Assembly (NCBI RefSeq): GCF_030499575.1
Contig: NZ_JASTLC010000001.1
Span: forward strand, 2,194,001-2,258,000
From: Streptomyces sp. DG2A-72
GTDB taxonomy: Bacteria > Actinomycetota > Actinomycetes > Streptomycetales > Streptomycetaceae
Direction of reading: 5' to 3'
DNA length: 64,000 nt
Shown here piece by piece: positions 16,669-36,139 of the stretch (its first letter is position 1; every line of letters begins with the position of its first letter). Made by a program: the position numbers and the translations under genes. The notes beneath the pieces were generated by a model, which searched no databases, was not told the DNA's origin, and saw nothing but the letters and a program-made list of their open reading frames with translations.

Positions 16669-17751
16669 TCACAGGACGGTGTCGAGCCAGGCGAACACCT
16701 CGTCCTGCATGCGGTCGTCGAAGACATGGCCGAGATCGGGCCAGACCTTCAGGCGCAGCCGCTCCTCGGCGTGGCGCGAGCGCCAGACGGCGGTGAGCTT
16801 GTCGTGGGCCACCCGTACGCCGTCGGCGGGGAAGAGGGGGTCCAGGGCGCCGCTGAAGAAGAGCATCGGCCTGGGGGCGGCGATGCTCGCCACGTCGGGG
16901 ATGTCGAGGTGCCGGGCGAGCCCGGGGTGGAGCATGTAGTACGCCGACTGGCCGCGCAGGGTGTTGTTGCCGGGCACCATCATTTCCTTCAGGCCGGTCA
17001 TCCAGCAGACGGCCGCAGTGGCCGCAACGGAGTCGGTCAGCGCGGCGGTCTGCCAGGCACGGAACGCGCCCATGGAGAACCCGACGGCCGCGACCCGGCG
17101 CGCGTCCACCCGGTCGAGGCCCGCCAGGAACCCGGCGGCGCGGGCGTCCTCGCGGGCCATGAGTCCGGCGAGCGAGGAGCCGAGATGGTAGAAGTTGGCG
17201 GCCAGCGCCTGCTGTTGGTCGTAGGTGAGCGGGCCCCGGTCGCCCCAGCCGAGCGCGTCCAGGCACAGCACGACGTACCCGCGCCGGGCCAGTTCGTCTC
17301 CGACGAACCGCCCGCTGAAGCACTTGTCGGCCCAGGCCTGCGCGGAGGCGAGCCGCGCGTCGTCGTACCAGGGCCGGACGAGCTTCTCCTTGCCGATGTC
17401 GAACCTGGCGCCGTGGTCGTGCAGCAGCAGGACCGCAGGGAAGGGCCCGGGGCCGTGCGGGGTGAGCAGGGCGCCACGGATGCGTTCGTAGCCGGTGAGG
17501 GAGAGGGTCACCAGCTCCCGCGTACAGCCGTCGGCTTCGGACCTGGCGCCGAACTCCGGGGTGTACGGGGTGTGTTCGTCCCGGTCGACGATCAGCAGCT
17601 CCTCGACCTTGGCGCGGGCGGCACGGCGCCAGGCGCGGAAGTCGCGGATCGGTGCCCGTCCCCAGGCGAGCGGGAAGGTGAGTCCGTTCTTGAGGGCGGG
17701 ATGGAAGCCGGGCAGCGGGCCGTCCACCACGGCCGCCTCCGCCCCGCTCAC
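16669..17751 (-). CDS. Alpha/beta-hydrolase esterase, frameshifted behind its Tat signal
   Basis: The readable frame from the GTG at 17751 encodes 360 residues with the catalytic triad Ser226 (GFSMG, 224-228), Asp304 (SGALDPLFP) and His342 (DLGHVF), plus the conserved LLHDHGARFDIGKEKL and CLDALGWGDRG segments. This pattern matches the dienelactone-hydrolase/Abhydrolase_7-like enzymes found with polysaccharide lyases, where deacetylation or de-esterification of pectin is the likely job. Its secretion signal is in a different frame immediately upstream (17752-17828). Adding one base to the C-run at 17756-17759 would join the two. It is the last gene of the long minus-strand operon. Confidence 0.78.
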   Translation of the reverse strand: MSGAEAAVVDGPLPGFHPALKNGLTFPLAWGRAPIRDFRAWRRAARAKVEELLIVDRDEHTPYTPEFGARSEADGCTRELVTLSLTGYERIRGALLTPHGPGPFPAVLLLHDHGARFDIGKEKLVRPWYDDARLASAQAWADKCFSGRFVGDELARRGYVVLCLDALGWGDRGPLTYDQQQALAANFYHLGSSLAGLMAREDARAAGFLAGLDRVDARRVAAVGFSMGAFRAWQTAALTDSVAATAAVCWMTGLKEMMVPGNNTLRGQSAYYMLHPGLARHLDIPDVASIAAPRPMLFFSGALDPLFPADGVRVAHDKLTAVWRSRHAEERLRLKVWPDLGHVFDDRMQDEVFAWLDTVL

Positions 17752-17828
17752 CGCTCCCCGGCGAACAGCGCCGCTGCCCCGGCGCCGACCACGAAGGCCC
17801 GGCGTCCCACCGCGTCATGGCCGCTCAT
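17752..17828 (-). other. Orphaned Tat signal-peptide segment of the esterase gene
   Basis: An ATG at 17828 with GGGAGG just upstream opens MSGHDAVGRRAFVVGAGAAA, a textbook twin-arginine signal (GRRAFVV plus hydrophobic stretch), and then meets TGA at 17748-17750. The ATG overlaps the end of the pectate lyase gene by 14 bases, as expected for translational coupling. One extra G in the minus-strand GGGG run would continue it as AALFAGGAVSGAEAAVVDG into the esterase. This is either a real -1 mutation or a sequencing error. Confidence 0.75.
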
Positions 17829-19095
17829 ACGGCCTCCCGGTGCCGGCGTGGCGGAGGACGCACGCCTCGACCGCCTGCGCGGACCTGAGGGGCCGGTGGT
17901 CGTAGACGTCGGCGGGGTCCCAGCCGACATCGGTGGTGAGGCCGAGGCCGCTCGCCACCGCGTTCAGGTGGGCGGGGCGACCGTTGAACCAGGAGCCGGT
18001 GTCGCGGAAGCGCTCACCTCCGTAGTCCGCGACCGTGAGGGACGGGGAGCCCCGCCGGTAGCGGAACACATTGCGTTCGGAGAAGATCGCGGACTCCACG
18101 CCGACGCCGAGCGCATAGACGGTGTCGGCCGCCCGTCCCCGGTACACGTTGTTGACGACGTGCACCTGCCCGAAGCGGACGCGCGGGGCGCGCTGCACGA
18201 TGTCGGTGAAGAGGTTCCGGACGAACGTCACCTTCAGGTGCCCCCGGTCCCGGTCACCGCGCCCGTCGCCGGAGCCGATGAGGATCGCCTTGTCGTGGTC
18301 GGTGAACCGGCTGTCGGAGACGGTGATGAAGTCGGAGCCGTCCTCGATGTCCAGCAGCCCGTCGTGCCGCTGGACGCGCTCCCCGTGGAAGCCGACGGGT
18401 GCCTCGCGGTCGCGGAAGCGGCCGTTGGTGAACGTGCAGTGGTCGATCCAGATGTGCTTGCCGGTGATGACGGTCATCGCGTCGAAGCGGGCGTCCCAGC
18501 TGCCCTGGGTGCCGTCGCCCGGCGACCAGGTGGTGAAGTGGTCCACGGGTGCTTCGAGGTGGAGGTTGCGGACGACGATGTTCGTGCCGGTGTTGACGGT
18601 CAGGAAGACCCCGAGGAGCCGGGCGTCGTCGCCGGCGCCGACGAGCGTGGTGTTGCTCGGCACGGTCAGCTGGATCTGCGCCTTCTCCTGGTTCGACCCG
18701 GTCTGCCGGAGCTGACGCTGCTGCCTGCAGTAGTCGTAGCGGGTGTCCGACCAGGTGGCGCCGTCCTCGCCGAAGCAGGACATGTACTTCGCGAGGTCGT
18801 AACCGGGTGCGTAGTCCTGCTCCCCGAGCAGCGAACCGTCGTCCGCCTCATGCCCGTTGACGTCACCGACGACTCGGATCACCTTGGGCGCGGTGGGGGC
18901 GCCGCGGTTGGCGAGTGCCTCCTTGAGCTCGGCGCGAGTGGACACCGTCCAGGTCGTGCCGCCCGCGCCGCCGGTGGTGCCGGGGCCGGTGGCGGCCCAG
19001 CCGACCGGCTCCCGCTCGGCGGCGGCAGCCGGAGCCGGCCAGGACAGGCACACGCACACGCACACGCACACGAGAAGGGCGGCGACCCTATGCAC
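17815..19095 (-). CDS. Secreted pectate lyase, family PL1
   Basis: 426 residues. A Sec signal (residues 1-26) contains an unusual run of four Val-Cys pairs coded by a hexanucleotide repeat. The right-handed beta-helix domain opens with GWAATGPGTTGGAGG and has the PL1 features NTTLVGAG, KHIWIDHCTF (calcium/vWiDH region), RHDGLLDIEDGSDFITVSDSRF and the catalytic-Arg segment QRAPRVRFGQVHVVNN. It cleaves de-esterified polygalacturonate by calcium-dependent beta-elimination outside the cell. The GTG start overlaps the pectinesterase stop (GTGCATAG), so it is co-translated with it. Confidence 0.9.
   Translation of the reverse strand: MHRVAALLVCVCVCVCLSWPAPAAAAEREPVGWAATGPGTTGGAGGTTWTVSTRAELKEALANRGAPTAPKVIRVVGDVNGHEADDGSLLGEQDYAPGYDLAKYMSCFGEDGATWSDTRYDYCRQQRQLRQTGSNQEKAQIQLTVPSNTTLVGAGDDARLLGVFLTVNTGTNIVVRNLHLEAPVDHFTTWSPGDGTQGSWDARFDAMTVITGKHIWIDHCTFTNGRFRDREAPVGFHGERVQRHDGLLDIEDGSDFITVSDSRFTDHDKAILIGSGDGRGDRDRGHLKVTFVRNLFTDIVQRAPRVRFGQVHVVNNVYRGRAADTVYALGVGVESAIFSERNVFRYRRGSPSLTVADYGGERFRDTGSWFNGRPAHLNAVASGLGLTTDVGWDPADVYDHRPLRSAQAVEACVLRHAGTGRPYERP
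19048..19071 (-). repeat. Hexanucleotide microsatellite in a signal peptide
   Basis: Four perfect copies of GCACAC on the plus strand encode Val-Cys four times in the hydrophobic core of the pectate lyase signal peptide. The 6-base unit keeps the frame, so slippage would change only the length of the core. Confidence 0.9.
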
Positions 19096-20215
19096 CGGGC
19101 CGCCAGTCGCCGAGGTACGTCTCCTTGGTGTGCGACCGGGCCTCGGCCGAGGTCAGTTGGGGCCGGTTCTCGTGGACCGTGACGACCGCGCCGGGGCCGT
19201 TGTTGCGGTACTCGGCGAAGCGCTGCTCCTGCCAGGGATGGGCGTCACGCATGTTGGCGTAGGGCGCGACCGCGTCGATGCCGGGGCCGAGCCAGGTTTC
19301 CCGGACGGTGAGCATCGGGCGGGCCGTGGTGCTGGAGCTGGGCACCCAGGGGCGGGCCACTTTGTAGTAGGCGTCGGGGGCCTCGCTCGTCACCCGGCCG
19401 CGCAGGACCAGGTAGCCGTGCGGGTTGGTGCGCTCCGTGGAGGGTGCGAAGACGAAGCCGTACGGGGCCGAGGAGAGGTCCGTGCGGTTGAGCGTGCGGA
19501 AGTGGCAGTGCTCGTAGACGGCCGTGGCCCGGCCGAAGACGAAGTCGACGTCGCCCTCGACATAGCAGTGGGAGAAGTACTGGCGGGCGAAGAGAGTGGA
19601 GGAGTTGGAGTCGGCGTACAGGGTGTCCTGGTGGCCGAGGAAGCGGCAGTGGTGGAAGGCCGAGCGGTCGCCCTGCACCTTGATGGCGACGGCCTGGGTG
19701 CCGCTGATCCCGGGGTGCTCTTCGCGCAGGAAGTCGTTGGCGAAGGTGATCCGGTGAGCGGTGAAGCCGTCCCCTCGGACGGTGGTGGTGGCCGAACCGG
19801 TGGTGCCGTAGGTGCCGGAGCCGTCCGGCTTGGGGGTGCCGGCCGCGTTGTCGTAGACGATGACGACGTCGCGCGGGCCGTCGCCGGCGCCGAGCCAGGT
19901 CATCTCCGTGCGGGAGCGGTCGACGGAGACCGTCTCCCGGTAGGTGCCCGGCGCGATGACGAGGGTCCAGCCGCTGCCCGGCGCGGCGGTCACGGCGGCC
20001 TGGACGGAGGTGAAGTCGCCCTGGCCCAAGGCGTCGACGTAGAGGGTCTGCGGGGTCAGGCGCGCGGCCGGTGAACCGTACCGGCCGAAGGGGCAGGACA
20101 GGGCATCGGCGGCCCGGGCAGGGACCGGTGCCAGGGCGAGCGTGGCGCCGGCACCGGCGCTCGCCGTCAGGAACCCTCTTCTGGAGAGGGGCGGCCGGAG
20201 GTGGGATGAAGGCAT
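19088..20215 (-). CDS. Secreted pectinesterase, family CE8
   Basis: 375 residues with a Tat-type signal peptide (LSRRGFLTASAGAGATLAL, cleavage near ARAADA). The beta-helix pectin methylesterase signatures are all present: GTQAVAIKVQGDRSAFHHC, FLGHQDTLYAD (acid Asp), YVEGDVDFVFGRATA (nucleophile Asp) and KVARPW (Arg-Trp). It removes methyl esters from homogalacturonan and so prepares the substrate for the neighbouring lyases. The ATG at 20215 has AAGGAG 8 bases upstream. It sits between two PL1 genes in the operon. Confidence 0.92.
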   Translation of the reverse strand: MPSSHLRPPLSRRGFLTASAGAGATLALAPVPARAADALSCPFGRYGSPAARLTPQTLYVDALGQGDFTSVQAAVTAAPGSGWTLVIAPGTYRETVSVDRSRTEMTWLGAGDGPRDVVIVYDNAAGTPKPDGSGTYGTTGSATTTVRGDGFTAHRITFANDFLREEHPGISGTQAVAIKVQGDRSAFHHCRFLGHQDTLYADSNSSTLFARQYFSHCYVEGDVDFVFGRATAVYEHCHFRTLNRTDLSSAPYGFVFAPSTERTNPHGYLVLRGRVTSEAPDAYYKVARPWVPSSSTTARPMLTVRETWLGPGIDAVAPYANMRDAHPWQEQRFAEYRNNGPGAVVTVHENRPQLTSAEARSHTKETYLGDWRPGA

Positions 20216-20329
20216 GGGTGTGCTCCTTCGGGGGTGCGGCTCGTGCAAAGGGTGCGTCGGACTGCTGCCTCGCGGTGGGGGTGCGGTGGCCGGGGCGGCG
20301 ACATGCGCGCCCCGGCCCGGCGTGCTGCG

Positions 20330-21664
20330 TCAGCGCAGCCGGCCTGCGCCCGCGTGGGTGTCGACGATCCACGGGACCGCCCGTGGCGAGTCGACCTTGG
20401 TGCGCAAGGTCGGCGTCCAACCGGCGCCGGACTGGAGGGTCTCCTCGGGGATCTCCGCGTTGTGGACGGCGATCAGGTCGGTCAGCCTGCCGTTGACGTA
20501 GTTGTTCTCGGCGGTCAGCGGCGCCTCCTTCCACTTCTTCAGCGTCCTGGCCGGGCTGACCCCCTTCGGCAGCGAGAAGGCGTTGTCCGTGGCGTACAGC
20601 CGCGACTCGATGCCGATGCCGAAGGTGTAGACGTAGGGCTGGTCCTCGGTCACCACGAAGTGGTTGTTGTAGGAGTCGACCTGCCCGAACCGCACGCGCG
20701 GCGCGCGCTCGACGATGCCCTCGAAGCGGTTGTGGTGGAGGGTGACCTTGAGCTTGCCGGTGTCGTCCGCGGCGGCGCTGTCGCTGTTGCCGATCAGCAT
20801 GGTCTTGTCGTGGTCCTCGAAGGAGTTCCAGGACACGGTCACGTGGTTGGCACCGCGCACGATGTCGACCAGCCCGTCGTGCTGCTGGTAGATCTCGCCG
20901 AAGTACGACGGCAGCGAGCTGTCGGGGTGACGCCCGTCGGTGAACGTGTTGTGGTCGAGCCACACGTGGGTGGAGCCGTAGACGACGACGCCGTCGTACT
21001 CGGAGTTCCAGGCCCCGGTGGTGCCGTCGGTCGGGTCCCACTGCGGGAAGCAGTCGATCGGGGCCTCGACGGTGAGGTTGCGGAGGATGACGTTGTCCAC
21101 GCCCCTGATCTGCAGGCTGCCGCCGAGGATCCCGGAGCCCTTCCCGACGCCGACGATGGTGGTGTTGGCGGGGACGCTCACCTTGATGGCCTTGCCCTGG
21201 TTGTCCGCGGACGCGTCGCGCAGGTCCTCCTGCTCACCGCTGACCGGGGTGTCGTTGCCCCAGACGGCGGGGTCGTAGTCGGCGAGGTACTGCTGGAAGT
21301 CGTAGCCCTCGGCGGCGAAGGCGTCGCAGCCCTGGGAGACGGCGTCGATCATGCCCTTGACCTTGATGATCCTGGGTGCCGACCCTCCCTCCTTCAGGGC
21401 GGCCTGGAACTCCTCCCAGGTGGTGACGGTGTGGACATGCGCGGCGTCGGCGGCCGAACCGCCCGTCGTGCCCGCGCCCTGCGAGCCCCAGCCGTCGCCG
21501 GCGGCGAGCACCTGGCGGCCGAGGTCACGGCCCTGTGCCTGGGCACCGGCACCGGTGGTGCCGGTGAGACCGAGGACGAGCGCGGTGCAGCCGGCCAGGA
21601 CGGCGGTTCTACGGGCGATCGCGGACCGGGTTATGGCATGCCCATGCCATGAATATGCGTTCAT
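20330..21664 (-). CDS. Secreted pectate lyase, family PL1
   Basis: 444 residues with a signal peptide (about 1-42, ARRTAVLAGCTALVLGLTG). The beta-helix domain carries GWGSQGAGTTGGSAADAAH, NTTIVGVGKGSGILGGSLQI, THVWLDHNTFTDG, QQHDGLVDIVRGANHVTVSW and the catalytic segment VERAPRVRFGQVDSYNN. It resembles the lyase at 29583 more than the one at 17815 (shared CDAFAAEGYDFQQYLADYDP-type insertion). Calcium-dependent cleavage of polygalacturonate is expected. The open frame extends upstream to 22330, but homology starts at the ATG at 21664. Confidence 0.9.
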   Translation of the reverse strand: MNAYSWHGHAITRSAIARRTAVLAGCTALVLGLTGTTGAGAQAQGRDLGRQVLAAGDGWGSQGAGTTGGSAADAAHVHTVTTWEEFQAALKEGGSAPRIIKVKGMIDAVSQGCDAFAAEGYDFQQYLADYDPAVWGNDTPVSGEQEDLRDASADNQGKAIKVSVPANTTIVGVGKGSGILGGSLQIRGVDNVILRNLTVEAPIDCFPQWDPTDGTTGAWNSEYDGVVVYGSTHVWLDHNTFTDGRHPDSSLPSYFGEIYQQHDGLVDIVRGANHVTVSWNSFEDHDKTMLIGNSDSAAADDTGKLKVTLHHNRFEGIVERAPRVRFGQVDSYNNHFVVTEDQPYVYTFGIGIESRLYATDNAFSLPKGVSPARTLKKWKEAPLTAENNYVNGRLTDLIAVHNAEIPEETLQSGAGWTPTLRTKVDSPRAVPWIVDTHAGAGRLR

Positions 21665-21699
21665 GTGAGCGGCTCTCTTCCGTTCTACGGGGGACGGGG

Positions 21700-22500
21700 C
21701 TACGCGGCGGCTTCGGGCCAGGTGATCCAGGACTCCGGGATCGCGTCGTCGAGCCGGCACACGTCCCGTGCTGCCAGCACACCGGTCCGCAGCAGCTCGC
21801 GCACCACGAGCCGCGCTACGGCGATCGCACCGGGCGGATTGAAGTGCGTGTTGTCCTGCTCGGTCTCGGTCCAGTTGAAGTACTTCTTCGACTCCTCGAC
21901 ACCCAGCTCCTGCCAGAGCGAGAGGGACAGCGCCTGGATGTCGAGCAGCGCGACATCCTCCCGCTCGGCGAGCGCACGCATCGCCGCGGGATACTCGCCG
22001 TGCGTGGTCCTGGCGTTGCCGGCGGTGTCGAACCTGCGGCGTTCGACCGGCGTGGCGAGGACCGGCCGGGCGCCCCGGGCGCGCGCACCGTCGATGTAGA
22101 GACGCAGATGGTCCTGGTACGTCGTCCAGGGCTCGGTGTACCGAGCGGGATCGGCGGTCTTCTCGTCGTTGTGCGCGAACTGGATCAGCAGGAAGTCGCC
22201 GGGCCGGATGGCGCCGAGGATCACATCGAGCAGACCCTCGTCGACGAAGCTCTTCGAACTGCGCCCGTTCATCGCGTGGTTGGAGACGGGCCGGTCCTTG
22301 TGCAGGAGGAAGGGAAGAGCCATGCCCCACCCGGTCTCGGGCGCGGCGTCGGCGTACTTCTGGGCGGCGGTGGAATCACCGGCGATGAAGAGGGTGCGGG
22401 TGCGGTGGCCGGAGCCGGCGTGAGCGGTACCGGTGGCCGCGAAGCTGAGCGGAGCGGCGGTCATGGCCGCCAGCGTGACCTGTCTGCGGGTTAGGGACAC
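21700..22500 (-). CDS. Secreted rhamnogalacturonan acetylesterase, family CE12
   Basis: 266 residues of SGNH-hydrolase type. A signal peptide with twin Arg (SLTRRQVTLAAMTAAPL) leads to block I FIAGDSTAA (nucleophile Ser), block II NHAMNGRSSKSF (Gly), block III QFAHNDEK (Asn) and block V DNTHFNPPGA (Asp/His), the exact set of rhamnogalacturonan acetylesterases. It removes acetyl groups from rhamnogalacturonan-I. I take the GTG at 22500 as start because the signal peptide begins there; a TTG at 22545 is possible. It lies in the operon between the ABC binding protein and a pectate lyase. Confidence 0.9.
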   Translation of the reverse strand: MSLTRRQVTLAAMTAAPLSFAATGTAHAGSGHRTRTLFIAGDSTAAQKYADAAPETGWGMALPFLLHKDRPVSNHAMNGRSSKSFVDEGLLDVILGAIRPGDFLLIQFAHNDEKTADPARYTEPWTTYQDHLRLYIDGARARGARPVLATPVERRRFDTAGNARTTHGEYPAAMRALAEREDVALLDIQALSLSLWQELGVEESKKYFNWTETEQDNTHFNPPGAIAVARLVVRELLRTGVLAARDVCRLDDAIPESWITWPEAAA

Positions 22501-22560
22501 GGGGAGGTGCCTTTCTGGGAAGGGTCGTTCAGCGGTGCCTTTCAAACGTGGGGGGTGGCA

Positions 22561-22612
22561 GCGCCCTAGGGGCGCGGGGAACTGCGCGACCGGCCACCAG
22601 CAATCCGCAGCC
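22561..22612 (+). repeat. Interspersed Streptomyces repeat, copy D
   Basis: Hairpin GCGCCC-TA-GGGGCGC followed by the GGGGAACTGCGCGACCGGCC core. The tail is diverged (CACCAGCAATCCGC). It falls inside the long pectin operon, between the binding-protein stop and the CE12 start, where it could attenuate or process the transcript. Confidence 0.85.
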
Positions 22613-22637
22613 GGCCACGCACAGGTGCGACCGAGAT

Positions 22638-23987
22638 CTAGCCGTTACGCGAATCCCACTCGGTCTGAGCCTCGTTGAGCTGTCCGGCCAACGTGTCCAG
22701 GAACTCCTTGGCGCTCATGTCTCCGTTGAGCACCTTCTGGAAGTTCGGCTCGTTGTCGGCCTTGGAGATGGAGTTCCAGTCGGGCAGGTAGTACGGCAGC
22801 TGCACGATCGTCGTCGACCCGTCGTTCAGCGCCTCGGCCGCGAGCTTGGTCGGCTCGGCCTTGGAGATCCACGCGTCCTTCGCGGCATCCGTGTTGGACG
22901 GGATGGCGCCGGCCGATTCGTTCCACTTGGAGTTCGACTCGTGCGACGCGGCGAACTCGATGAACTTCCAGGCGGCTTCCTTGTTCTTGGAGCTCTTGAA
23001 CAGGCCGAGCCCGTCGACCGGGTTGGAGACCTGGACCCGCTTGCCGCCGGGGCCCGTGGGCTGCGGGATGCCGCGGAACTTGTCGGCCCCGAGCGCCTTG
23101 ACGTGGTCCTGATAGGAGCCGAGGTTGTGGTTCAGCATCCCGATGGTGCCGGAGTCCCACTGGGCGACCATCTTGGTGAAGTCGTTGTTCAGGTCGGCGG
23201 CCGGGGTGACCTTCTTGTACAGCGCCGCGTACTTCTCCAGCGCCGCGACGTTCTTCGGGTCGTTGACGGTGGTCTTCTCACCGCTGGCGTCCCAGAAGGA
23301 CGTGATCCCGGACTGCCCGTACATCGCGTCCAGCGCCTGGGCGATGGAACCGGCGCCGCCACGGATCGTGTAGCCGAACTCGTTCTTCTTGACGTCGGTG
23401 AGCTTCTCCGCGGCCTCGTAGAACGTGTCCCAGGTGGTCGGCGCGTCCAGGCCCGCCGCCTTGAACAGGTCGGTGCGGTAGTAGAGGACACCGTTGTTGG
23501 CGGAGGTCGGGATCGAGTACAGCGCGTCGTCACCGCCCCCGGCGGCCTTCAGCGACGTGACCATGTCGTCGTTGAGCTTGCCGTTCAACGACGACTTGGC
23601 GAACCGGTCGTCCAGCGGATCCAGCGCCTCCTGCGCGGCGAAGCCCGCGAGCATCGCCGCGCCGACACCGCCGACGTCCGGCAGGCCGCCGCCCTGGATG
23701 GCGGTGTCCACTTTGGACTGGTAGTCGGTGGCGGGGATGCCGACGTACTCGACCTTGATGTCCGGGTTGGCCTTCTGGAAGTCGGCGATGACCTCCTTCC
23801 AGATGTCGGTGCGGACACCGCCGTTGTTGTCCCAGAAGACGATCTCGCCCTTGCCGCTGCCCTCTTCGCCCTTGTCTCCGCCGGCGCCGCTGCCGTCGTC
23901 ACCGCAGGCGGTGGTGGTCAGGGCGAGGACGGAGCCCAGAGCGACGGCCACGGCGGCGCGCCTGCTTCTGCGGATGCTGATCTTCAT
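22638..23987 (-). CDS. ABC sugar transporter, extracellular binding lipoprotein
   Basis: 449 residues. The lipoprotein signal ends in TTTACGDD, so Cys is lipidated. The mature part has the family 1 binding-protein pattern: KGEIVFWDNNGGVRTDIWKEVIADF, then VEYVGIPATDYQSKVDTAI, YSIPTSANNGVLYYRTDLFKAAGLDAPTTWDTF and GLGLFKSSKNKEAAWKFIEF. It most likely captures oligogalacturonides or arabino-oligosaccharides for the permeases at 30863 and 31759, from which it is separated by six enzyme genes of the same operon. No ATPase gene is nearby; a shared MsiK-type ATPase elsewhere is usual in Streptomyces. Confidence 0.88.
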   Translation of the reverse strand: MKISIRRSRRAAVAVALGSVLALTTTACGDDGSGAGGDKGEEGSGKGEIVFWDNNGGVRTDIWKEVIADFQKANPDIKVEYVGIPATDYQSKVDTAIQGGGLPDVGGVGAAMLAGFAAQEALDPLDDRFAKSSLNGKLNDDMVTSLKAAGGGDDALYSIPTSANNGVLYYRTDLFKAAGLDAPTTWDTFYEAAEKLTDVKKNEFGYTIRGGAGSIAQALDAMYGQSGITSFWDASGEKTTVNDPKNVAALEKYAALYKKVTPAADLNNDFTKMVAQWDSGTIGMLNHNLGSYQDHVKALGADKFRGIPQPTGPGGKRVQVSNPVDGLGLFKSSKNKEAAWKFIEFAASHESNSKWNESAGAIPSNTDAAKDAWISKAEPTKLAAEALNDGSTTIVQLPYYLPDWNSISKADNEPNFQKVLNGDMSAKEFLDTLAGQLNEAQTEWDSRNG

Positions 23988-24001
23988 TGGTCGGCTCTCT
24001 T

Positions 24002-24028
24002 CTTCTGGATCAAACACTTCTGGATCAA
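24002..24028. repeat. 15-bp-period direct repeat in the binding-protein leader
   Basis: CTTCTGGATCAA occurs twice (24002-24013 and 24017-24028), 15 bases apart, in the 63-base gap before the binding-protein start. It may be an operator or a recent duplication that influences translation of this highly needed component. Confidence 0.7.
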
Positions 24029-24050
24029 GCGAGCTGTGAAGTTGTGGGGG

Positions 24051-26051: not shown

Positions 26052-26084
26052 TGCGGCTCCCAACAGGCTTACGGGTGACGTGCG

Positions 26085-27593
26085 TTACGAGGGGGTGATC
26101 CGGAACTCGGTGAAGACCGCGGCGCCGGCGTGTCCCCCGCCGACGGGCGCGAGCGCGAACAGTCCGAGCAGGGCGCCGACCCAGCGCCAGGGTGTGGCGG
26201 CGAAGACGGGACCGGAGGACGTCCAGCCGTCGCCGATGTCGTACGAGAAGCGGCAGCGTGCCCCGGAGCCGATCTCGATCCGCAGCCGGGCCCGTCCGCC
26301 GGGCGCGAGCCGCGGATGGGCGGCGTCCCGTTCGTGCTCGGCGACGGCCTCGGCGAACCGGTGCACCAGGTGGACCGTCCCGTCGGTCCCCCGTTGCAAC
26401 CCGATCCAGCTGAAGGCGTCTCCGAGCACCGCGAGCCCTGCCCGGGACCCCGGCTCCTCGCTGTGCAGGTGCAGCCCGACCTCCACCGTGCAGGGCGTCC
26501 CGGGCAGCCGCTGGGTGAGGACGCTCGGCAGTTTGCGCAGGTCGTGGGTGTCGGCCGAGCGGACGCAGGTGAGGCGGAGGCCGTCGCCGGAGTGCTGGGT
26601 GGCCCAGCCGTCCTGCGGGTTGGCGGTCCACTGCCACTGGCGGCCGTGGCGTCCGCCGGGGAAGTCGTCGTCGGTGGCGGGCGCGGCGGCCGGCTGCGGT
26701 GGCAGATTCGGGCGCTTGTGTACGGCGACGGGGGCTCCGTCGTCGCCGAGTACCGGCCAGCCGTCCGTGCCCCAGCGCATCGGCTGGAGGTGGACGACCC
26801 GGCCGTACGCACCGCGCTGCTGGAAGTGCAGGAACCAGTCCTCACCGGACGGGGTGCGCACCCAGCCGCCCTGGTGCGGCCCGTTGACGTCGGTGTCCTT
26901 CTGCTCGAGGACGATCCTCTCCTCGTACGGCCCGAAGAACCCGCGTGAGCGGAAGGCGCCCTGCCAGCCGGTCTCGACTCCCCCGGCGGGGGCGAGGATC
27001 CAGAACCAGCCGTCGTGCCGGTAGAGCTTGGGGCCTTCGAGGGTGAACCAGCCGGGGATGCGGTCCCCGTCGACGATCACCTTGCCCTCGTCGAGAAGTG
27101 ACGTCCCGTCAGGGTGCATCCGGTGGCCGGTGAGGCGGTTCTTGATGCCGGAGCGGGACTTGGCCCAGGCGTGGACGAGGTAGGCCTCGCCGGTCTCGTC
27201 GTCCCAGAGCGGGCAGGGGTCGATCAGGCCCTTGCCCGCCTTGACGAGGTGGGGGCGGGTCCAGGGACCGCGGATCTCGGGGGCGTTGATCTGGTGGATG
27301 CCCTGGTCGGGGTCGCCCCAGAAGATCCAGAACCGGTCGTCGTGGTGGCGGAGGGCGGGTGCCCAGACTCCGCAGTCGTGGCGTGGGGACCTGAACTCGG
27401 CCGCGGGCTCCAGGCGCCCGAGGGCGTGGCCGACCAGGGTCCAGTTGACCAGGTCGCGGGAGTGGAGCAGGGGCAGGCCGGGGGCGCGGCCGAAGCTGGA
27501 GGCCGTGAGGTAGAAGTCGTCGCCCACGCGGACCACGTCGGGGTCGGACCAGTCCGCGTCGAGGATCGGGTTGCGGTAGGTGTCGGTCGTCAT
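26085..27593 (-). CDS. Family 43 glycoside hydrolase, cytoplasmic
   Basis: 502 residues without signal peptide. The catalytic triad of GH43 is visible: base Asp17 (DADWSDPDVV), pKa-modulating Asp125 (GLIDPCPLWDD) and acid Glu186 (FTLEGPKLY). A C-terminal jelly-roll domain (about 340-500; QWQWTANPQDGW, FSWIGLQRG, GARCRFSYDIGDGW) matches the extra domain of beta-xylosidase/exo-arabinofuranosidase-type members. Being intracellular, it probably finishes imported oligosaccharides. It overlaps the PmoA-like gene by ATGA and lies 33 bases before the PL1-CE8 gene. Confidence 0.9.
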   Translation of the reverse strand: MTTDTYRNPILDADWSDPDVVRVGDDFYLTASSFGRAPGLPLLHSRDLVNWTLVGHALGRLEPAAEFRSPRHDCGVWAPALRHHDDRFWIFWGDPDQGIHQINAPEIRGPWTRPHLVKAGKGLIDPCPLWDDETGEAYLVHAWAKSRSGIKNRLTGHRMHPDGTSLLDEGKVIVDGDRIPGWFTLEGPKLYRHDGWFWILAPAGGVETGWQGAFRSRGFFGPYEERIVLEQKDTDVNGPHQGGWVRTPSGEDWFLHFQQRGAYGRVVHLQPMRWGTDGWPVLGDDGAPVAVHKRPNLPPQPAAAPATDDDFPGGRHGRQWQWTANPQDGWATQHSGDGLRLTCVRSADTHDLRKLPSVLTQRLPGTPCTVEVGLHLHSEEPGSRAGLAVLGDAFSWIGLQRGTDGTVHLVHRFAEAVAEHERDAAHPRLAPGGRARLRIEIGSGARCRFSYDIGDGWTSSGPVFAATPWRWVGALLGLFALAPVGGGHAGAAVFTEFRITPS

Positions 27594-28435
27594 GCGCTCA
27601 CCGCCTTGCGCACCAGGGACGCCGCTTCGAGCCGGCTGATGCGGCCGTCGGCGACGACGGTGACGATCCGGCGGACGGCGGTCTCACCGGGCAGGATCGG
27701 CAGCCGCTCCTCGGCGGCGAGACAGGAGCCCACGCCGGGATACTCCGTGGCGCGCACGAACCACTGGTCCCAGCGGGTCTGTTCGGTGGCCCCGGCGAAG
27801 ATCAGGGTCCAGGTGGAGCCCGCGAGAGCCACCCAGGCGGCGCGGGTGCCGTGGACCTCCTGCTCGCCCTCGCGGTCGATGGTGAACACGTCCGGCGTCG
27901 TGGACTCCTTGCGCGCCCGCCAGAAGAAGCCGCCGTAGGCAGCGCCGGGGCGGCCGTTGGTGGCCGGGCTGCCGATCGACAGCGGGGCGGAGGTGACGTT
28001 GGTGAGGGAGAAGGTGAGGTCCAACGCCCAGGCGGCGTCGGTGAGTTCGGTGGCCGCCACCGTACGGCGCTCGCGCAGCAGCTCAGCTCCCGTGGCCACC
28101 CAGCGCAACTCCTCCACGAAGCCGTCGGGGTCGCGGAGCTGGAACGCGGTGTGCCGCTGGGCTCCGTGGTTGTCCAGCTCGGTGGGGCCCCGGTCGCGGA
28201 CGTAGGTGCGTCCGCCCCAGAAGTTGTGCCCCTCGACGTCGGGAACGGCGACACCGACGCCGAGGTGGTGTGTGTGGTCGGCGGGGCTCAGCTCGGTGAC
28301 CGCCGTGCCGGCCAGGGTGGTGACGGGGTGCAGATAGGGGCGTGGGGAGAGCCGGGGGGCCAGCTCGGGCCGCGTCACATAGCGGGCGACCGGGCGGCCC
28401 GCGACGCGCAGGACCGGGGAGTCGGGGGTCGTCAT
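27590..28435 (-). CDS. PmoA-like DUF6807 protein
   Basis: 281 residues matching the DUF6807 ('methane oxygenase PmoA') family: PRPYLHPVTTLAGTAVTELSP, DHTHHLGVGVAVPDVEGHNFWGG, GSPATNGRPGAAYGGFFWRA. The name is historical; the family is not a methane oxygenase. It typically neighbours Gfo/Idh/MocA oxidoreductases and glycosidases in carbohydrate loci, as it does here, with overlaps on both sides. The conserved His pair (HTHHLG) and the Tyr/Trp-rich core suggest a sugar-binding or isomerase-like fold, but the reaction is unknown. Confidence 0.82.
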   Translation of the reverse strand: MTTPDSPVLRVAGRPVARYVTRPELAPRLSPRPYLHPVTTLAGTAVTELSPADHTHHLGVGVAVPDVEGHNFWGGRTYVRDRGPTELDNHGAQRHTAFQLRDPDGFVEELRWVATGAELLRERRTVAATELTDAAWALDLTFSLTNVTSAPLSIGSPATNGRPGAAYGGFFWRARKESTTPDVFTIDREGEQEVHGTRAAWVALAGSTWTLIFAGATEQTRWDQWFVRATEYPGVGSCLAAEERLPILPGETAVRRIVTVVADGRISRLEAASLVRKAVSA

Positions 28436-29586
28436 CAGGTGCTCACCTCTTTCGGGCGCGCTTGCGGGAGCGCCCAGGGGGCGCCCAGCTCGGAGTAGAG
28501 GGAGAGGGTGTCGGCGGCAGCGGCGACGAGGCCGTCGACGCCGGGGACCACCCGGCGGCCCTCTGCGGGGACGAAGTGCCAGGCCTCCTCCGGCAGCGGG
28601 GCCGGGTCGGGGGCCAGTCGAATCGCTTCCACGACCTTCATGAAGGCGCCCGTCGAGTCCGGCGTGACCAGCAGCTCGGCGCCGGTGGTGACGTGGTCGA
28701 CGAGGTTCTCCAGCAGGTCCGTACGGCCGTACTCGGTCTCCTCCGGACCGTGGTCGGCACGCTGGAGCAGCACGCGGTCCTGCTTGTACCAGAAGGTGAT
28801 CCGGCCGCGGCTGCCGTGCACGAGGACGTACGGCTCATCGGGATGCTCGGCGCACAGGGTCGCGGCGACGGTGACCGAGCGGCCCTTTGTGGTGGTGACG
28901 CGGACGCAGGAGGTGTCGTCGGACTCGATGTCGTTGGCGCGCAGCAGCTCGGTCTCGATGTCGGTGACGTCCTCGGCGCGGGTCGTGCCGTTCAGCGCGA
29001 GGGCGGTGGCGACGGCGTGCGCGAGCGGGTTGGTCAGCACCCCGTCGATCACCTCGACGCCGTTCAGCCGCCGCTTTCCCGCCCAAGGCGCACGCCGGTA
29101 GTACGCCTCGGCGCGCGCCCAGGCCCCCGCCCCGCCGATGCCGACCAGTTCACCGATCGCCCCCTCGGCGATCAGCTCACGGATCACCGGCACCGCGTGC
29201 GAGCCCAGCGACTGGAACCCGATCTGGCAGGCGACGCCCGCCCGGGCGACCCCGTCGGCCATCCGGCGGAACTCGGCGTACGACGGCGCGGGCGGCTTCT
29301 CCAGCAGGAGATGCACACCCCTGGCGGCGGCCGTCAGGGCGAGGTCGGTGTGGGTCGGGATCGGCGTGCAGATCACGGCGATCCGCGCACCGGTGGAGTC
29401 GAGGAGGGCGCCGAAGTCGGACGACTGGGCGGGCAGTTCCCGGCCTTGGAGTTCCGCCTCGGTCAGCGGCGTCAGTTCGCAGATGCCGGCCAGGCGTACC
29501 AGCCCCTTGTCCTGGAGCCTGCGGATGTTCTCGACGTGCCAGCGGCCATGGCCACGCGCGCCCGCCAGGACGATGTCTACGGTCAT
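28435..29586 (-). CDS. Gfo/Idh/MocA-family oxidoreductase
   Basis: 383 residues. The N-terminal Rossmann domain opens with VDIVLAGARGHGRWHVENI and holds the EKPPAPS motif (Glu-Lys-Pro) at about 97-103. The C-terminal alpha/beta domain includes GVEVIDGVLTNPLAHAVATALAL, which positions the catalytic His/Asp region. Such enzymes oxidise or reduce sugars, inositols or uronates with NAD(P). Within a pectin operon and fused by overlaps to a PmoA-like protein and a pectate lyase, a sugar or uronate derivative is the likely substrate. The exact one is not readable. Confidence 0.87.
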   Translation of the reverse strand: MTVDIVLAGARGHGRWHVENIRRLQDKGLVRLAGICELTPLTEAELQGRELPAQSSDFGALLDSTGARIAVICTPIPTHTDLALTAAARGVHLLLEKPPAPSYAEFRRMADGVARAGVACQIGFQSLGSHAVPVIRELIAEGAIGELVGIGGAGAWARAEAYYRRAPWAGKRRLNGVEVIDGVLTNPLAHAVATALALNGTTRAEDVTDIETELLRANDIESDDTSCVRVTTTKGRSVTVAATLCAEHPDEPYVLVHGSRGRITFWYKQDRVLLQRADHGPEETEYGRTDLLENLVDHVTTGAELLVTPDSTGAFMKVVEAIRLAPDPAPLPEEAWHFVPAEGRRVVPGVDGLVAAAADTLSLYSELGAPWALPQARPKEVST

Positions 29587-30866
29587 GGGATCCTCCCTGC
29601 GCCCGCGCCGCGTGCCACCTCTCGGTCGGCCCGCTCGGCGCTGTCGATCTTTGTGTGCAGGGTAGGTGTCCAGCCGACGTCGGCCGTGAGATCGCGCTCG
29701 CTACCGGAGTTGTAGGCGTTGTAAATCGCCAGCAGATCGACCGGATAGCCGTTGAAGAGGGTGCCGGTCTGGTGCAGGGCGGTGCCGTTCCAGCTCTTCA
29801 CCAGGTCGGCGACCTCGATGTGGCCGGGGGTGTGGAAGGCGTTGTTCTCGGCGTAGAGGGCGGACTCGACGGAGATGCCGAGCGAGTACCGGTAGTCGTC
29901 CTTGATGGCGTACCGGTTGTTGTAGACGTGCACCTGCCCGAAGCGGACGCGTGGAGCGCGCTGTACGACGGACTCGAACTCGTTGTGGTGCAGGGTCACC
30001 CGGAGCTTGCCGCGATCGCCCGTCGCCGAGTCGCCGCTGCCGATCAGCATCGCCTTGTCGTGGTCGGCGAACCGGCTCCAGGAGACGGTGATCAGGTCGG
30101 AGCCGTTGGTGATGTCCAGCAGGCCGTCGTGGCGGAGGTAGTTGCGGGCGAAGTAGGTGGGCTCCTTCGCGTCGGGGTGGCCCTTGTCGCTCGCGGTGAT
30201 GTGGTCGATCCAGACGTGGGTGGCGCCGGTCAGCCACAGGTTGTCGTACGCCGTCTTCCAGTCGCCGAGGCCGCCGGTGTTGGGCTGCCAGACGGGGAAG
30301 CAGTCGTAGGCGTCGCGGAGTTCGAGGTTGCGGATGATGACGTTGCCCGCGTTCTTGACCTGGAGGCTTGCGCCTTTGAGTACCGCTGAGGAGCCGAGTC
30401 CGACGATCGTGGTGTTGGAGCCGACGTTCAGGACGACCCGTTCGGCCTGCTTCGCGGCGGACGCCTGGCGGGCCTCCTCCTGCGGGCCGCTCGGCTTCGC
30501 CCCACCCCAGGTGCGGGGGTCGTACGCGGCCAGGTACTTCTTGAGGCTGTAGCCGTCGGTGGCGTAGTCGGCGCAGTCCAGGTGGTCGCCGTCGTCGTCG
30601 GTGTTGGCGTCGATCGTCCCTGCGATCCGGATGATCTTCGGGGTGTCGCTGCCGCCGTCGAGGGCACGGACCAGTTCGGCGCGGTCGGTGACGGTGAAGA
30701 CATGGGCGTCGTCGGCGGCTGAGCCTCCGGTGGTGCCGGGACCGTACGCCGCCCAGCCGTCGTTGGCGGGCAGGGTGTCGCGGCTGATGTCACGGTCCTC
30801 GGCGTGGGCGGGGACGCTGAGCGCGGCCAACAGCGCCAGCGGCACGATGAGTTGATGCTTTCTCAT
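29583..30866 (-). CDS. Secreted pectate lyase, family PL1
   Basis: 427 residues with a Sec signal peptide (RKHQLIVPLALLAALSVPAHA). The PL1 pattern comprises GWAAYGPGTTGGSAADDAH, NTTIVGLGSSAVLKGASLQV, THVWIDHITASDKGHPDAKE, RHDGLLDITNGSDLITVSWSRF and VQRAPRVRFGQVHVYNN with the catalytic Arg. The ATG at 30866 overlaps the permease stop, so this secreted enzyme is translated directly after the transporter; the stop overlaps the oxidoreductase start. It is a close relative of the lyase at 20330. Confidence 0.9.
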   Translation of the reverse strand: MRKHQLIVPLALLAALSVPAHAEDRDISRDTLPANDGWAAYGPGTTGGSAADDAHVFTVTDRAELVRALDGGSDTPKIIRIAGTIDANTDDDGDHLDCADYATDGYSLKKYLAAYDPRTWGGAKPSGPQEEARQASAAKQAERVVLNVGSNTTIVGLGSSAVLKGASLQVKNAGNVIIRNLELRDAYDCFPVWQPNTGGLGDWKTAYDNLWLTGATHVWIDHITASDKGHPDAKEPTYFARNYLRHDGLLDITNGSDLITVSWSRFADHDKAMLIGSGDSATGDRGKLRVTLHHNEFESVVQRAPRVRFGQVHVYNNRYAIKDDYRYSLGISVESALYAENNAFHTPGHIEVADLVKSWNGTALHQTGTLFNGYPVDLLAIYNAYNSGSERDLTADVGWTPTLHTKIDSAERADREVARGAGAGRIP

Positions 30867-31762
30867 CCCTTCACCGCCCCCGCGCTGAAGCCGGTGATCA
30901 GCCACTTCTGGATGAAGGCGAAGACGATCACCACGGGTACGGCCGCGATGATGCCGCCCGCGGCGAGCGCGCCGAGGTCGACGCTGTCCGCGCTCATCAA
31001 AGTGTTCAGGCCGACCGGGATGGTCTGCTTCTCCTGGTTGTTGAGGAACATCAGGGCGAACAGGAAGTGGTTCCAGGAGTGCACGAAGGCGAAGGAGCCG
31101 ACAGCGATCAGACCGGGGCGCAGCAGCGGCAGGACGACGATCCGGAAGGCCTTCATCCGGCCGCAGCCGTCGACCCAGGCGGCCTCCTCCAGGGAGTACG
31201 GCACGTTCTTGATGAAGTTGCTGATCAGGATGATCGACAGCGGTAGCTGGAAGACCGTCTCCGCGAGGATGACGCTGCCCAGCGAGTTGATCATCTGCAG
31301 TTCGGCGAAGATCTCGAACAGCGGAACCAGGAGCAGCGCGCCCGGCACGAACTGGGAGCACAGCAGCCCCAGCATGAACGCCCGCTTGACCTTGAAGTTG
31401 AACCGGGCGAGGGCGTAGCCGCCGGCCAGCGCGACGACCGTCGTCATCACCAGGGTCGCGACGCCGACGAGGACGCTGTTCTGGAAGTAGGTGCCGAAGG
31501 CCCGGTCCGTCCACACCTTCTCGAAGTGGTCGAAGGTCATCGGCCAGGGCACGAGCGAGGTGGAGCCGGCCGGACGGAGCGCGAAGAGCAGGATCCAGTA
31601 GAAGGGGATCAGGGTGAAGACCAGGTAGATCCCCAGCGGGGTGTAGATCTGCCAGCGTGGGGCCTCGTCCCAGGTGCGGCGCTTCTTCGCCGGACGCTGC
31701 GGCTCGGGGACCGGGCGGCGGGCGGCCGGGGCGACCGCGGTGGCCTCCTTGATGGTGCTCAC
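30863..31762 (-). CDS. ABC sugar transporter permease, MalG type
   Basis: 299 residues with six membrane helices after a ~30-residue polar head. The EAA loop that contacts the ATPase is YSLEEAAWVDGCGRMKAFRIVVLPLLRPG (about residues 185-213). It forms the membrane channel with the permease encoded just upstream (overlap ATGA) and with the binding protein at 22638. The likely cargo is pectin-derived oligosaccharides, judging from the lyase and esterase genes in the same transcript. Confidence 0.92.
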   Translation of the reverse strand: MSTIKEATAVAPAARRPVPEPQRPAKKRRTWDEAPRWQIYTPLGIYLVFTLIPFYWILLFALRPAGSTSLVPWPMTFDHFEKVWTDRAFGTYFQNSVLVGVATLVMTTVVALAGGYALARFNFKVKRAFMLGLLCSQFVPGALLLVPLFEIFAELQMINSLGSVILAETVFQLPLSIILISNFIKNVPYSLEEAAWVDGCGRMKAFRIVVLPLLRPGLIAVGSFAFVHSWNHFLFALMFLNNQEKQTIPVGLNTLMSADSVDLGALAAGGIIAAVPVVIVFAFIQKWLITGFSAGAVKG

Positions 31763-32697
31763 TTGTCCTCACCTCCGAACTTGCTCAGCCGCAGATAGAC
31801 CATCGAGCAGAAGAGCAGGATCACGAACGCGACCGTGGTCAGGGCCGACGCATAGCCGAAGTTGTGGGCGTCGACGCTGGTGTTGGCGATGTAGAGCGGG
31901 AGCGTCGTCGTCTCGCCCGCCGGTCCGCCGCCGGTGAGCGTGTAGAGCAGGTCGACGTTGTTGAACTCCCACACCGCCCGCAGCAGCGTGGACAGGATGA
32001 TCGCGTCCTTCAGATGAGGCAGCGTGATGTGCCAGAACTGTTTCAGCCGGCTCGCCCCGTCGACCTCGGCCGCCTCGTACAGGTCCTTCGAGACGGACTG
32101 GAGGTCGGCGAGGATGAGGATCGCGAAGAAGGGCACGCCGCGCCATAGATCGGCGACGATCGCCGCCGGGAACACGGTGGAGGTGTCCGACAGCCAACTG
32201 GTGCCGTAGGTGCCGATGCCCATGTCGGCGAGGTAACGGGTGATGCCCGTCTGGGAGTTGTAGAGCAGCACCCAGATCGCGGAGGTCAGCACACCGGAGA
32301 CGGCCCACGGCGAGAACACCAGCGCCCGGCCCAGCCCCCGCCCGACGAACGTCTGGTTGACGATCAGCGCCAGTGCCAGACCGAACAGCAGCTGCAGCCC
32401 GACCTCGACGAAGACCCACTTCGCGCTGAAGACCAGCGTGTCCCAGAAGACCGGGTCCTCGGTGAAGGCGTGGACGAAGTTGTCGAAGCCCGCGTAGCCG
32501 TTCCGCCAGGGTTTGGTGGGGTTGTAGTTCTGCAGGCTGTAGTAGAAGACGCTGAGCACCGGGTAGGCGATGAAGCCGAGCATCAGCACGGCGGCCGGGG
32601 CGATCAGCAGGTACGGCAGTCTGCGCGGGGTGGCAGAGGCACGGCGCCGCCGCCTCGGTGGCGCGGGCGGTTTCGCCACGGCTGCGGCTTGGGCCAT
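31759..32697 (-). CDS. ABC sugar transporter permease, MalF type
   Basis: 312 residues, six helices, EAA loop YEAAEVDGASRLKQFWHITLPHLK (about 207-230). An Arg-rich, Pro-rich N-terminus precedes the first helix (YLLIAPAAVLMLGFIAYPVLS). It is the first gene of the long minus-strand operon, so the promoter for up to 16 kb of pectin genes must lie just upstream, where a LacI-type palindrome is visible (32733-32745). Confidence 0.92.
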   Translation of the reverse strand: MAQAAAVAKPPAPPRRRRRASATPRRLPYLLIAPAAVLMLGFIAYPVLSVFYYSLQNYNPTKPWRNGYAGFDNFVHAFTEDPVFWDTLVFSAKWVFVEVGLQLLFGLALALIVNQTFVGRGLGRALVFSPWAVSGVLTSAIWVLLYNSQTGITRYLADMGIGTYGTSWLSDTSTVFPAAIVADLWRGVPFFAILILADLQSVSKDLYEAAEVDGASRLKQFWHITLPHLKDAIILSTLLRAVWEFNNVDLLYTLTGGGPAGETTTLPLYIANTSVDAHNFGYASALTTVAFVILLFCSMVYLRLSKFGGEDK

Positions 32698-34524: not shown

Positions 34525-35432
34525 ATGGACCACCCCGCGGCTATCGCGGCGACCTCGGCGCGTTCGTCCTCGGGCAACGGCTTGCTCGGCGGGCGGACGT
34601 CGCGGCGGCACAGGCCGAGGGAGGCGAGGGCTTCCTTGACGACGGTGACGTTGTTGGCGGAGCCGTTGGCAGCGCGAAGTTCCTCGAAGCGGCGGATCTG
34701 CTCCCAGACCTTCATGGCGGCCGGATAGTCGCCGGATCGAAGCGCCTCGATCATGTTCTGCGAAACGGCGGGGGCGACGTTCACGAGTCCGGAGGTGAAG
34801 CCGGTGGCGCCCGCGGAGAAGTAGGAGGGGGCGTAGGGCTCGGCGAGGCCGGCGACCCAGACGAAGCGTTCCAGGCCCGCGTCGCGGGCGAAGGCGGCGA
34901 ACTTCGCGGCGTCCGGGACGGCGTACTTCACGCCGATGACGTTCGGGCAGGCGTCGGCGAGTTCGGCCAGGCGGAAGCCGCTGAGCTGGGCGTTGCGGAT
35001 GTACGGGATGACACCCAGCTCGGGCACGGACTCGGCGATGGCGAGGTGGTAGTCGACCCAGCCGCCCTGGGAGACGTACGGGTGGACGGGCTGGTGGACC
35101 ATCACCATCTGGGCGCCGAGTTCACGGGCGTGACGGGCGGAGGCGACGGCGGTGGGTACGTCGTGGCCGACGCCGACCAGGACGGCGGCGCGGTCGCCCG
35201 CCTCGTCGATGGTCAACTCGGTGACGAGCTGCCGCTCTTGGGGCGTGAGGGCGTAGAACTCCCCCGTGTTCCCGTTCGGCGTGAGGATGCCGACACCGCC
35301 GTCGAGCAGCCGACGCAGCAGGGCCCGGTGGGTGTCCTGGTCGACGCTGCCGTCCTCGGCGAACGGGGTCACCGGGATCGCCACCACATCGGCCAGGGCC
35401 GCCCGCTGGGCCTCGAACGTCACGCTGCTCAT
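34521..35432 (-). CDS. DHDPS-family 2-keto-3-deoxy sugar-acid dehydratase or aldolase
   Basis: 303 residues, a (beta/alpha)8 barrel of the dihydrodipicolinate-synthase superfamily. The Schiff-base Lys169 (VIGVKYAVPD) and Tyr144 (VIPYIRNAQ) are present, together with the entrance motif GNTGEFYALTPQE. Sandwiched between a GntR regulator and an IlvD/Edd dehydratase by 4-base overlaps, it should act on the 2-keto-3-deoxy acid the dehydratase makes. Either it dehydrates this to 2-ketoglutarate semialdehyde (L-arabinonate route) or it cleaves it as an aldolase. It is not the lysine-pathway enzyme, which is at 61283. Confidence 0.8.
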   Translation of the reverse strand: MSSVTFEAQRAALADVVAIPVTPFAEDGSVDQDTHRALLRRLLDGGVGILTPNGNTGEFYALTPQERQLVTELTIDEAGDRAAVLVGVGHDVPTAVASARHARELGAQMVMVHQPVHPYVSQGGWVDYHLAIAESVPELGVIPYIRNAQLSGFRLAELADACPNVIGVKYAVPDAAKFAAFARDAGLERFVWVAGLAEPYAPSYFSAGATGFTSGLVNVAPAVSQNMIEALRSGDYPAAMKVWEQIRRFEELRAANGSANNVTVVKEALASLGLCRRDVRPPSKPLPEDERAEVAAIAAGWSI

Positions 35433-36109: not shown

Positions 36110-36139
36110 GCGCGCCTCTCGGATCTCACATATCGCGTC

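Follow-up and report, generated by a model that had tools for sequence, protein, structure and literature searches.

A conserved Streptomyces gene block, probably for pectin use, that begins at a regulator gene and has a probable oxidative uronate outlet

Which genes make up the pectin locus of Streptomyces sp. DG2A-72, and how could the cell deal with unsaturated oligogalacturonides in a genome where the enzymes of the standard route are not found? The question is raised by a 64,000-nt stretch of this genome (GCF_030499575.1, contig NZ_JASTLC010000001.1, positions 2,194,001 to 2,258,000), called the window below, to which all coordinates refer. An earlier note, made from the letters of the window, had described in it a single-strand pectin operon of thirteen genes and had judged it a complete actinobacterial counterpart of a polysaccharide utilisation locus. 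We find a block that is longer at its 5' end and less complete in its enzymes, and we consider it likely that this is a pectin (homogalacturonan) operon that starts at the regulator gene P and has an oxidative uronate outlet.

A conserved block that begins at a regulator gene

Genes were called from codon usage and assigned to families with Pfam and NCBIfam models. Starts were picked by eye among the candidates, those of genes E and B being uncertain, and signal peptides and the lipobox were read by eye from the N-termini. All thirteen minus-strand genes of the earlier note, from 32697 to 16669, were recovered with the same coordinates and families: two permeases, four genes of polysaccharide lyase family 1 (PL1), one of them fused to a carbohydrate esterase family 8 (CE8) domain, a separate CE8, a CE12-like esterase, a glycoside hydrolase family 43 (GH43) gene, a Gfo/Idh oxidoreductase, a DUF6807 protein, a binding protein and a further esterase. 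The boundary at the permeases had been drawn too late: the conserved block takes in three more genes on this strand (36109-32794) and reads from its 5' end as follows.

35429..36109, minus strand: P, regulator of the GntR/FCD family, with which the conserved unit opens (PF00392 and PF07729; start at 36109 with a Shine-Dalgarno-like site)
34521..35432, minus strand: O, lyase/dehydratase of the dihydrodipicolinate synthase (DHDPS) family, KdgD-like (PF00701; TIGR03249 142 < 374 bits)
32794..34524, minus strand: N, IlvD/EDD sugar-acid dehydratase, start at 34524 or 34533 (NF009559 938.5 > 882 bits)
31759..32697, minus strand: M, ATP-binding cassette (ABC) sugar permease 1 (PF00528)
30863..31762, minus strand: L, ABC sugar permease 2 (PF00528)
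29583..30866, minus strand: K, PL1 pectate lyase a, signal peptide by eye (PF00544, E 2e-48)
28435..29586, minus strand: J, Gfo/Idh/MocA oxidoreductase, signal peptide not seen (PF01408, PF22725)
27590..28435, minus strand: I, DUF6807 (PmoA-like) protein, 1-base overlap with J (PF14100, 251 > 27 bits, gathering)
26085..27593, minus strand: H, GH43 with GH43_C2, signal peptide not seen (PF04616, PF17851)
24051..26051, minus strand: G, PL1-CE8 fusion, signal peptide by eye (PF00544, E 1.2e-20; PF01095, E 2.6e-36)
22638..23987, minus strand: F, sugar-binding lipoprotein of an ABC transporter (PF01547, PF13416; lipobox-like N-terminus by eye)
21700..22500, minus strand: E, CE12-like GDSL esterase, with a twin-arginine translocation (Tat)-like signal if the start is GTG 22500 (PF13472, PF00657; partial PaeY match, 4e-17, under cut-off)
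20330..21664, minus strand: D, PL1 pectate lyase b (PF00544, E 1.9e-49)
19088..20215, minus strand: C, CE8 pectin methylesterase, Tat-like signal by eye (PF01095, E 4.5e-35)
17815..19071, minus strand: B, PL1 pectate lyase c, start uncertain (PF00544, E 4.1e-46)
16669..17751, minus strand: A, alpha/beta-hydrolase esterase (PF01738, E 4.2e-9)

A GTDB genome set scanned with DUF6807 gave 371 relatives, and the best 80 of these 371 were taken for synteny counts, each locus being seen with a 10-kb flank that often stops short of the 3' genes and of the upstream neighbours S and T described below. P, O, N, M and L are all present in 77 of the 80, the contigs of the remaining three beginning further downstream, and because P, O and N precede the permeases in these 77 loci, the conserved unit starts at 36109, with the GntR/FCD regulator, and not at the permeases. 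Both P and C are found in 73 of the 80 loci, a set that holds these two genes by selection and I as the anchor of the search, and all 73 also contain O, N, M, L, J, I, F and D. The accessory genes vary among the 73 (K in 47, G in 52, H in 71, E in 70), and the order P-O-N-M-L-(K)-J-I-(H)-(G)-F-(E)-D-C is kept with one oddity, in locus L067, where an additional CE8-like piece breaks the sequence of genes. Six of the seven loci outside this set are truncated by contig ends, and one, L010, is without CE8, a gene present in 74 of the 80. Past CE8 the 3' end is variable and often lies beyond the flank, the third lyase (B) being seen in 19 loci and the esterase (A) in 28. The comparison of gene order in related Streptomyces that the earlier note had proposed thus shows, across the 80 homologous loci, an order far beyond chance; as a Gram-positive pectin locus the block is of an ordinary type, and it is well conserved across many Streptomyces.

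The junctions are less tight than had been described. P-O and O-N are joined by 4-base overlaps, and 96 bp separate N from the first permease. The 12 junctions of the thirteen genes further downstream comprise four 4-base overlaps, one 1-base overlap (Gfo/Idh to DUF6807) and seven gaps of, in order, about 33, 63, 137, 35, 114, 16 and 63 bp. The description "mostly 4-base overlaps or short gaps" thus has to be amended: five of the 12 junctions are overlaps, the other seven are gaps of 16-137 bp, and tight coupling is a trait of the 5' half of the block.

Two side observations concern its 3' end. Between 17690 and 17870 (minus strand), a Tat-like signal peptide that precedes esterase A in frame in many relatives sits here in another frame and stops at a codon overlapping the called start, which reads as a frame change or a sequencing error. 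Convergent with the 3' end, on the plus strand at 14490..16595, lies a gene for a GH43-containing protein (PF04616) with a partial match, under cut-off, to NF052546; it was seen opposite the operon in 14 of the 80 loci.

Gene content and synteny lend good support to the view, already held in the earlier note, of a pectin-utilisation block that interleaves transport and secreted enzymes. The motifs WIDH/WLDH, HDK and RAPRVR are kept in the three separate PL1 proteins (K, D and B). The PL1 half of G has WIDH, without HDK and RxPRxR, and may be inactive or differently acting, if these motifs (WIDH/WLDH, HDK, RxPRxR) have the meaning in PL1 lyases that we assume for them. Signal peptides are apparent on the lyases, CE8 and CE12, and not on Gfo/Idh, DUF6807 or GH43. 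The secreted PL1 lyases and the CE8 and CE12 esterases would remove methyl and acetyl groups and cut pectin to unsaturated oligogalacturonides, and GH43, whose relatives are arabinofuranosidases/xylosidases, would trim arabinose-type side groups in the cytoplasm. Importer parts of what we take to be the CUT1 type are present, namely an SBP_bac_1/8 protein and two BPD_transp_1 permeases; the binding protein (23987-22638) is where the earlier note had placed it, the sixth gene after the second permease. No ABC ATPase is encoded within the block, and elsewhere in the genome there are three OB_MalK matches, two of them over cut-off, which are MalK-type candidates. Import would rely on the binding protein, the two permeases and a shared MalK/MsiK-type ATPase encoded elsewhere.

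How does this block compare with known systems? Like a Gram-positive ABC-type polysaccharide utilisation locus, it has a regulator, a binding protein, permeases and several carbohydrate-active enzymes for one polymer in one co-directional block. It departs from such a locus in the binding protein, which lies five genes away from the permeases, in the lack of an ATPase, in a genome without GH88/105 and KduI matches, and in carrying a Gfo/Idh-DUF6807 pair and a sugar-acid dehydratase. Bacteroidota loci are defined by a SusC/SusD pair, and no SusC/SusD Pfam family occurs among the 16 proteins P to A. No title describing this operon stands among the literature matches listed, which were mostly judged by title. 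One paper describes the deletion of a PL1 pectate lyase of Streptomyces galilaeus and tests on potato (PMC11631876); that enzyme is not placed on the present locus.

The upstream element and the number of transcripts

The region before P is strikingly conserved between the window and 77 relatives; the other intergenic gaps are less conserved, the columns of the F-E gap being partly so in relatives. Two features outside the genes bear on expression.

36136..36199, minus strand: conserved candidate promoter/operator, TTGACG-17-TACCTT followed by CGTACTTCGTACG and TCATATATGA
22530..22637, minus strand: F-E gap, which holds a hairpin of 15 pairs and one copy of a 24-bp repeat, a possible terminator/attenuator

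The sequence GTCATATATGAGAC, which contains the palindrome TCATATATGA, stands before the regulator in exact form in 77 of 77 relatives, and the pattern TTGAC-N18/19-TANNNT is found in all 77 as well; exact TTGACG-17-TACCTT is present in 65 and CGTACTTCGTACG in 66 of them. In the 10.6-Mb genome GTCATATATGAGAC has a single exact match, with seven further sites at two mismatches. TTGACG-17-TACCTT resembles a Streptomyces housekeeping-type promoter, and we infer that it serves as the promoter and the palindromes as the operator of P. No second operator was found in the window for TCATATATGA with one mismatch or for CGTCATATATGAGACG with three, and CGTACTTCGTACG gave three hits there with two mismatches.

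From P to A the genes could nonetheless be transcribed as more than one unit, for instance P-F and E-A, and be functional neighbours and not one operon, a possibility that we hold to be real if somewhat improbable. The 137-bp F-E gap, which may terminate or attenuate transcription, contains the hairpin and a GC-rich 24-bp element; allowing up to one mismatch, the genome has 227 copies of this element, against 0 in the reversed control. The 96-bp N-M gap, the looser gaps of the 3' half, the variable 3' gene content and the lack of CE8 in L010 point in the same direction. The folding energy of the hairpin, however, is no better than that of shuffles (z -0.19), and the loci are strictly co-linear. 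A generic sigma-70 consensus scan gave no match, although that scan passes over the promoter-like element conserved upstream of P as well. The sequence AAGCGCTTCAC before the first permease, considered as a conserved internal site in the N-M gap, was rejected, being exact in only 15 of 77 loci. In the preferred reading, an operon that starts at P, the genes would share a single transcript. The 24-bp element stands in the window twice, both times between genes, at 22568-22591 and 8347-8370.

The missing enzymes and the uronate outlet

The claim that the locus is complete is not supported, in three respects: the block has no ATPase, the regulator P and the catabolic genes O and N with which it starts had been missed, and the genome is without matches to several standard enzymes. 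In a survey of the whole 10.6-Mb genome, each profile search being run with positive control genomes, GH88/105 (PF07470) and PL22 (PF14583) gave no match, the positive controls being matched in 3 of 14 and 1 of 14 genomes respectively, and GH28 (PF00295) and UxaC gave none either. KduI was not found in this genome, the sole genome checked for it; both PF04962 matches are IolB, with TIGR04378 above cut-off. The genome thus differs from the canonical oligogalacturonide pathway (GH88/105, PL22, Kdu) in that uronyl hydrolase, oligogalacturonate lyase and KduI are all missing from its matches.

What is there recalls the oxidative uronate pathway, with DHDPS-family and dehydratase genes in the block, no UxaC found, and Udh-like and KdgD-like genes 3-5 kb upstream.

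40520..41329, plus strand: Udh-like short-chain dehydrogenase/reductase (SDR), divergent from T (6mfh, a mutated uronate dehydrogenase, E 1.4e-73; 3rft, 1.2e-65)
39407..40348, minus strand: T, KdgD-like 5-dehydro-4-deoxyglucarate dehydratase, a neighbour of the block (NF002958 436 > 278 bits; TIGR03249 314 < 374 bits)
38238..39410, minus strand: S, 390-aa protein with a 4-base overlap with T (TIM-barrel-like model of low confidence)

Judged by its sequence, the product of 40520-41329 bears a family resemblance to uronate dehydrogenases and is very close to the solved ones. Released galacturonate would be oxidised by this nearby enzyme, and the IlvD/EDD dehydratase and the DHDPS-family enzymes would carry the product towards 2-oxoglutarate by the non-phosphorylative route. 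The scheme departs from the known pathway in that the galactarate dehydratase would here need to be an IlvD/EDD protein. Galactarate, L-arabinonate and D-galactonate have the same configuration at C2-C4, so that N could act on galactarate. A Streptomyces uronate dehydrogenase has been characterised and is active on galacturonate (PMC4476818), and a pectinase of Streptomyces hydrogenans is reported to release galacturonate together with unsaturated mono-, di- and tri-galacturonates (PMC8055656). Adjoining the Udh-like gene, a second, separate sugar/polyol ABC locus (41616-46640) holds a DeoR regulator, a binding protein, two permeases and a zinc dehydrogenase.

The intracellular half of the block could instead serve the oxidation of L-arabinose (or galactose) from pectin side chains, which we consider rather improbable. 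GH43 would free arabinose, Gfo/Idh would be a sugar 1-dehydrogenase, DUF6807 a mutarotase/lactonase, N an L-arabinonate dehydratase and O a 2-keto-3-deoxyarabonate dehydratase. N does pass the L-arabinonate dehydratase equivalog NF009559 (938.5 > 882 bits), with 9evv, an L-arabinonate dehydratase, at E 6.4e-185; H resembles arabinofuranosidases, the predicted fold of DUF6807 is mutarotase-like, and some L-arabinose 1-dehydrogenases are Gfo/Idh proteins. But the genome already has two AraA-family matches, which would make an arabinose-only role for N and O redundant, and no solved chain with the name of an arabinose dehydrogenase is among the matches listed for J at E 0.001. GH43 is moreover absent from two of the 73 loci, which retain J, I, N and O, and pairs of the J-I type are found in regions where N or O was not seen.

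The Gfo/Idh and DUF6807 pair

If galacturonate leaves by oxidation, what would release it from unsaturated oligogalacturonides inside the cell? Because GH88/105, PL22, GH28 and KduI were not found genome-wide, we propose J and I for this internal step, as an in-operon candidate that we regard as quite improbable even so. The internal cleavage or rehydration of unsaturated products would be carried out by an NAD-dependent J with DUF6807, perhaps with the help of S. J would oxidise the hydroxyl beside the double bond made by the lyase, DUF6807 would eliminate or hydrate the enone, and the glycosidic bond would break; J could re-reduce the product. That the pair replaces the unsaturated galacturonyl hydrolases in this very way is at least as doubtful as its candidacy.

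Among the solved relatives of J (best E 5e-11) are several that bear the name of a sugar dehydrogenase, and I is predicted to be a galactose-mutarotase-like beta supersandwich, a fold of about 280-300 residues. In the PDB, DUF6807 has no sequence relative below E 0.2 and no specific one by Foldseek, and a single paper among the literature matches listed names the family, in passing. Two known systems come close to what is proposed. YjhC is a Gfo/Idh rehydratase of 2,3-unsaturated sialic acid, a product of some sialidases, and regenerates NAD+ (PMC7315737). It shares its superfamily with J, which 6o15 (YjhC) matches weakly (E 2.3e-6, residues 48-157 of J only), and differs in substrate and partner from the role that J is proposed to have. 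The 3-keto-glycoside beta-elimination of AtOGE divides the work between a Gfo oxidoreductase, a distinct eliminase and a putative hydratase (PMC10628242), although AtOGE is a Mn TIM barrel, whereas the prediction for DUF6807 is a beta sandwich of the mutarotase-like kind.

The neighbourhoods of DUF6807 bear on the pairing. We examined 20 of 26 matches, excluding the copy in the window, four copies with a Gfo/Idh neighbour already listed and one fragment. Gfo/Idh is adjacent, overlapping or fused in 15 of these 20 regions, two of the 15 being the same operon in other genomes; four regions (L112, L119, L120 and L122) have no adjacent Gfo/Idh, and L126 could not be judged. L122 combines DUF6807 with GH28 and GH43, and L120 with PfkB and KDPG aldolase. 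The only true Gfo/Idh-DUF6807 fusion found is that of L121, from another actinobacterium, a locus that carries DHDPS-family, MR/MLE and apiosidase-like genes and an SDR matching epimerases as well as Udh. A similar fusion in Streptomyces, suspected from long open frames, was rejected, the two genes being in different frames in 80 of 80 loci. At L123:6379-8346, a LacI regulator and DUF6807 domains share one open frame beside a Gfo/Idh gene and an ABC transporter.

J and I could also be a general sugar/glycoside dehydrogenase and its mutarotase accessory, the oligogalacturonides being cleaved by an unrecognised glycosidase, for instance S, or by a remote enzyme; this too seems unlikely to us, for although DUF6807 pairs with Gfo/Idh in several contexts, S overlaps the KdgD-like gene and its model resembles GH42 and beta-amylase barrels, that model is poor (predicted local distance difference test, pLDDT, 59.8) and no Pfam or NCBIfam family match names S. 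Within flanks that often end earlier, S was seen to precede P, in the same orientation, in 32 of the 80 loci, a point in favour of its involvement, and T was seen in 10.

Some observations weigh against our explanation as a whole, an operon for pectin with an oxidative outlet and the J-I pair at its internal step. N scores as an L-arabinonate dehydratase and not as a galactarate dehydratase, and J passes no named dehydrogenase cut-off (NF058561, 31 < 750 bits; LevoglcsnDh, 50 < 650 bits). The genome's three other DUF6807 copies lie in partly annotated regions in which no pectin lyase was recognised, and with the hairpin between F and E there could be several transcripts. Nor does the distribution of GH88/105 single out the genomes with J. 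Among 296 Streptomyces genomes, 180 carry a J orthologue (E <= 1e-100), and a PF07470 match is strong (E below 1e-20) in 35 of these, only weak in 21 and absent in 124, while 13 of the 116 genomes without J have a strong match and 103 are without one; 28 genomes with weaker PF07470 matches were set apart. Most J genomes are without GH88/105, but so are most J-less genomes, and an anticorrelation was looked for and not found (35/180 versus 13/116; without correction for relatedness, the odds ratio is 1.9 and the Fisher p is 0.075).

Elsewhere in the window, a TROVE-domain protein, which we take to belong to the Ro60-like family, is encoded at 50148-51167, and searches for tRNA and Rfam families (gathering score) across the window gave no match.

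The corrected block offers a regulator, an upstream element with a single exact copy in the genome, a transporter and a well-delimited group of intracellular enzymes. Because several of the standard oligogalacturonide enzymes are absent from a genome with this block, a DUF of vague meaning becomes the subject of a specific hypothesis open to assay. If it is true, Streptomyces, and other actinobacteria that have the pair in uronate loci, would have a pectin pathway that needs neither GH88/105 nor KduI, and DUF6807 would be assigned a function. The interesting part of the locus is this combination of an absent standard route with a pair of genes that may replace it.

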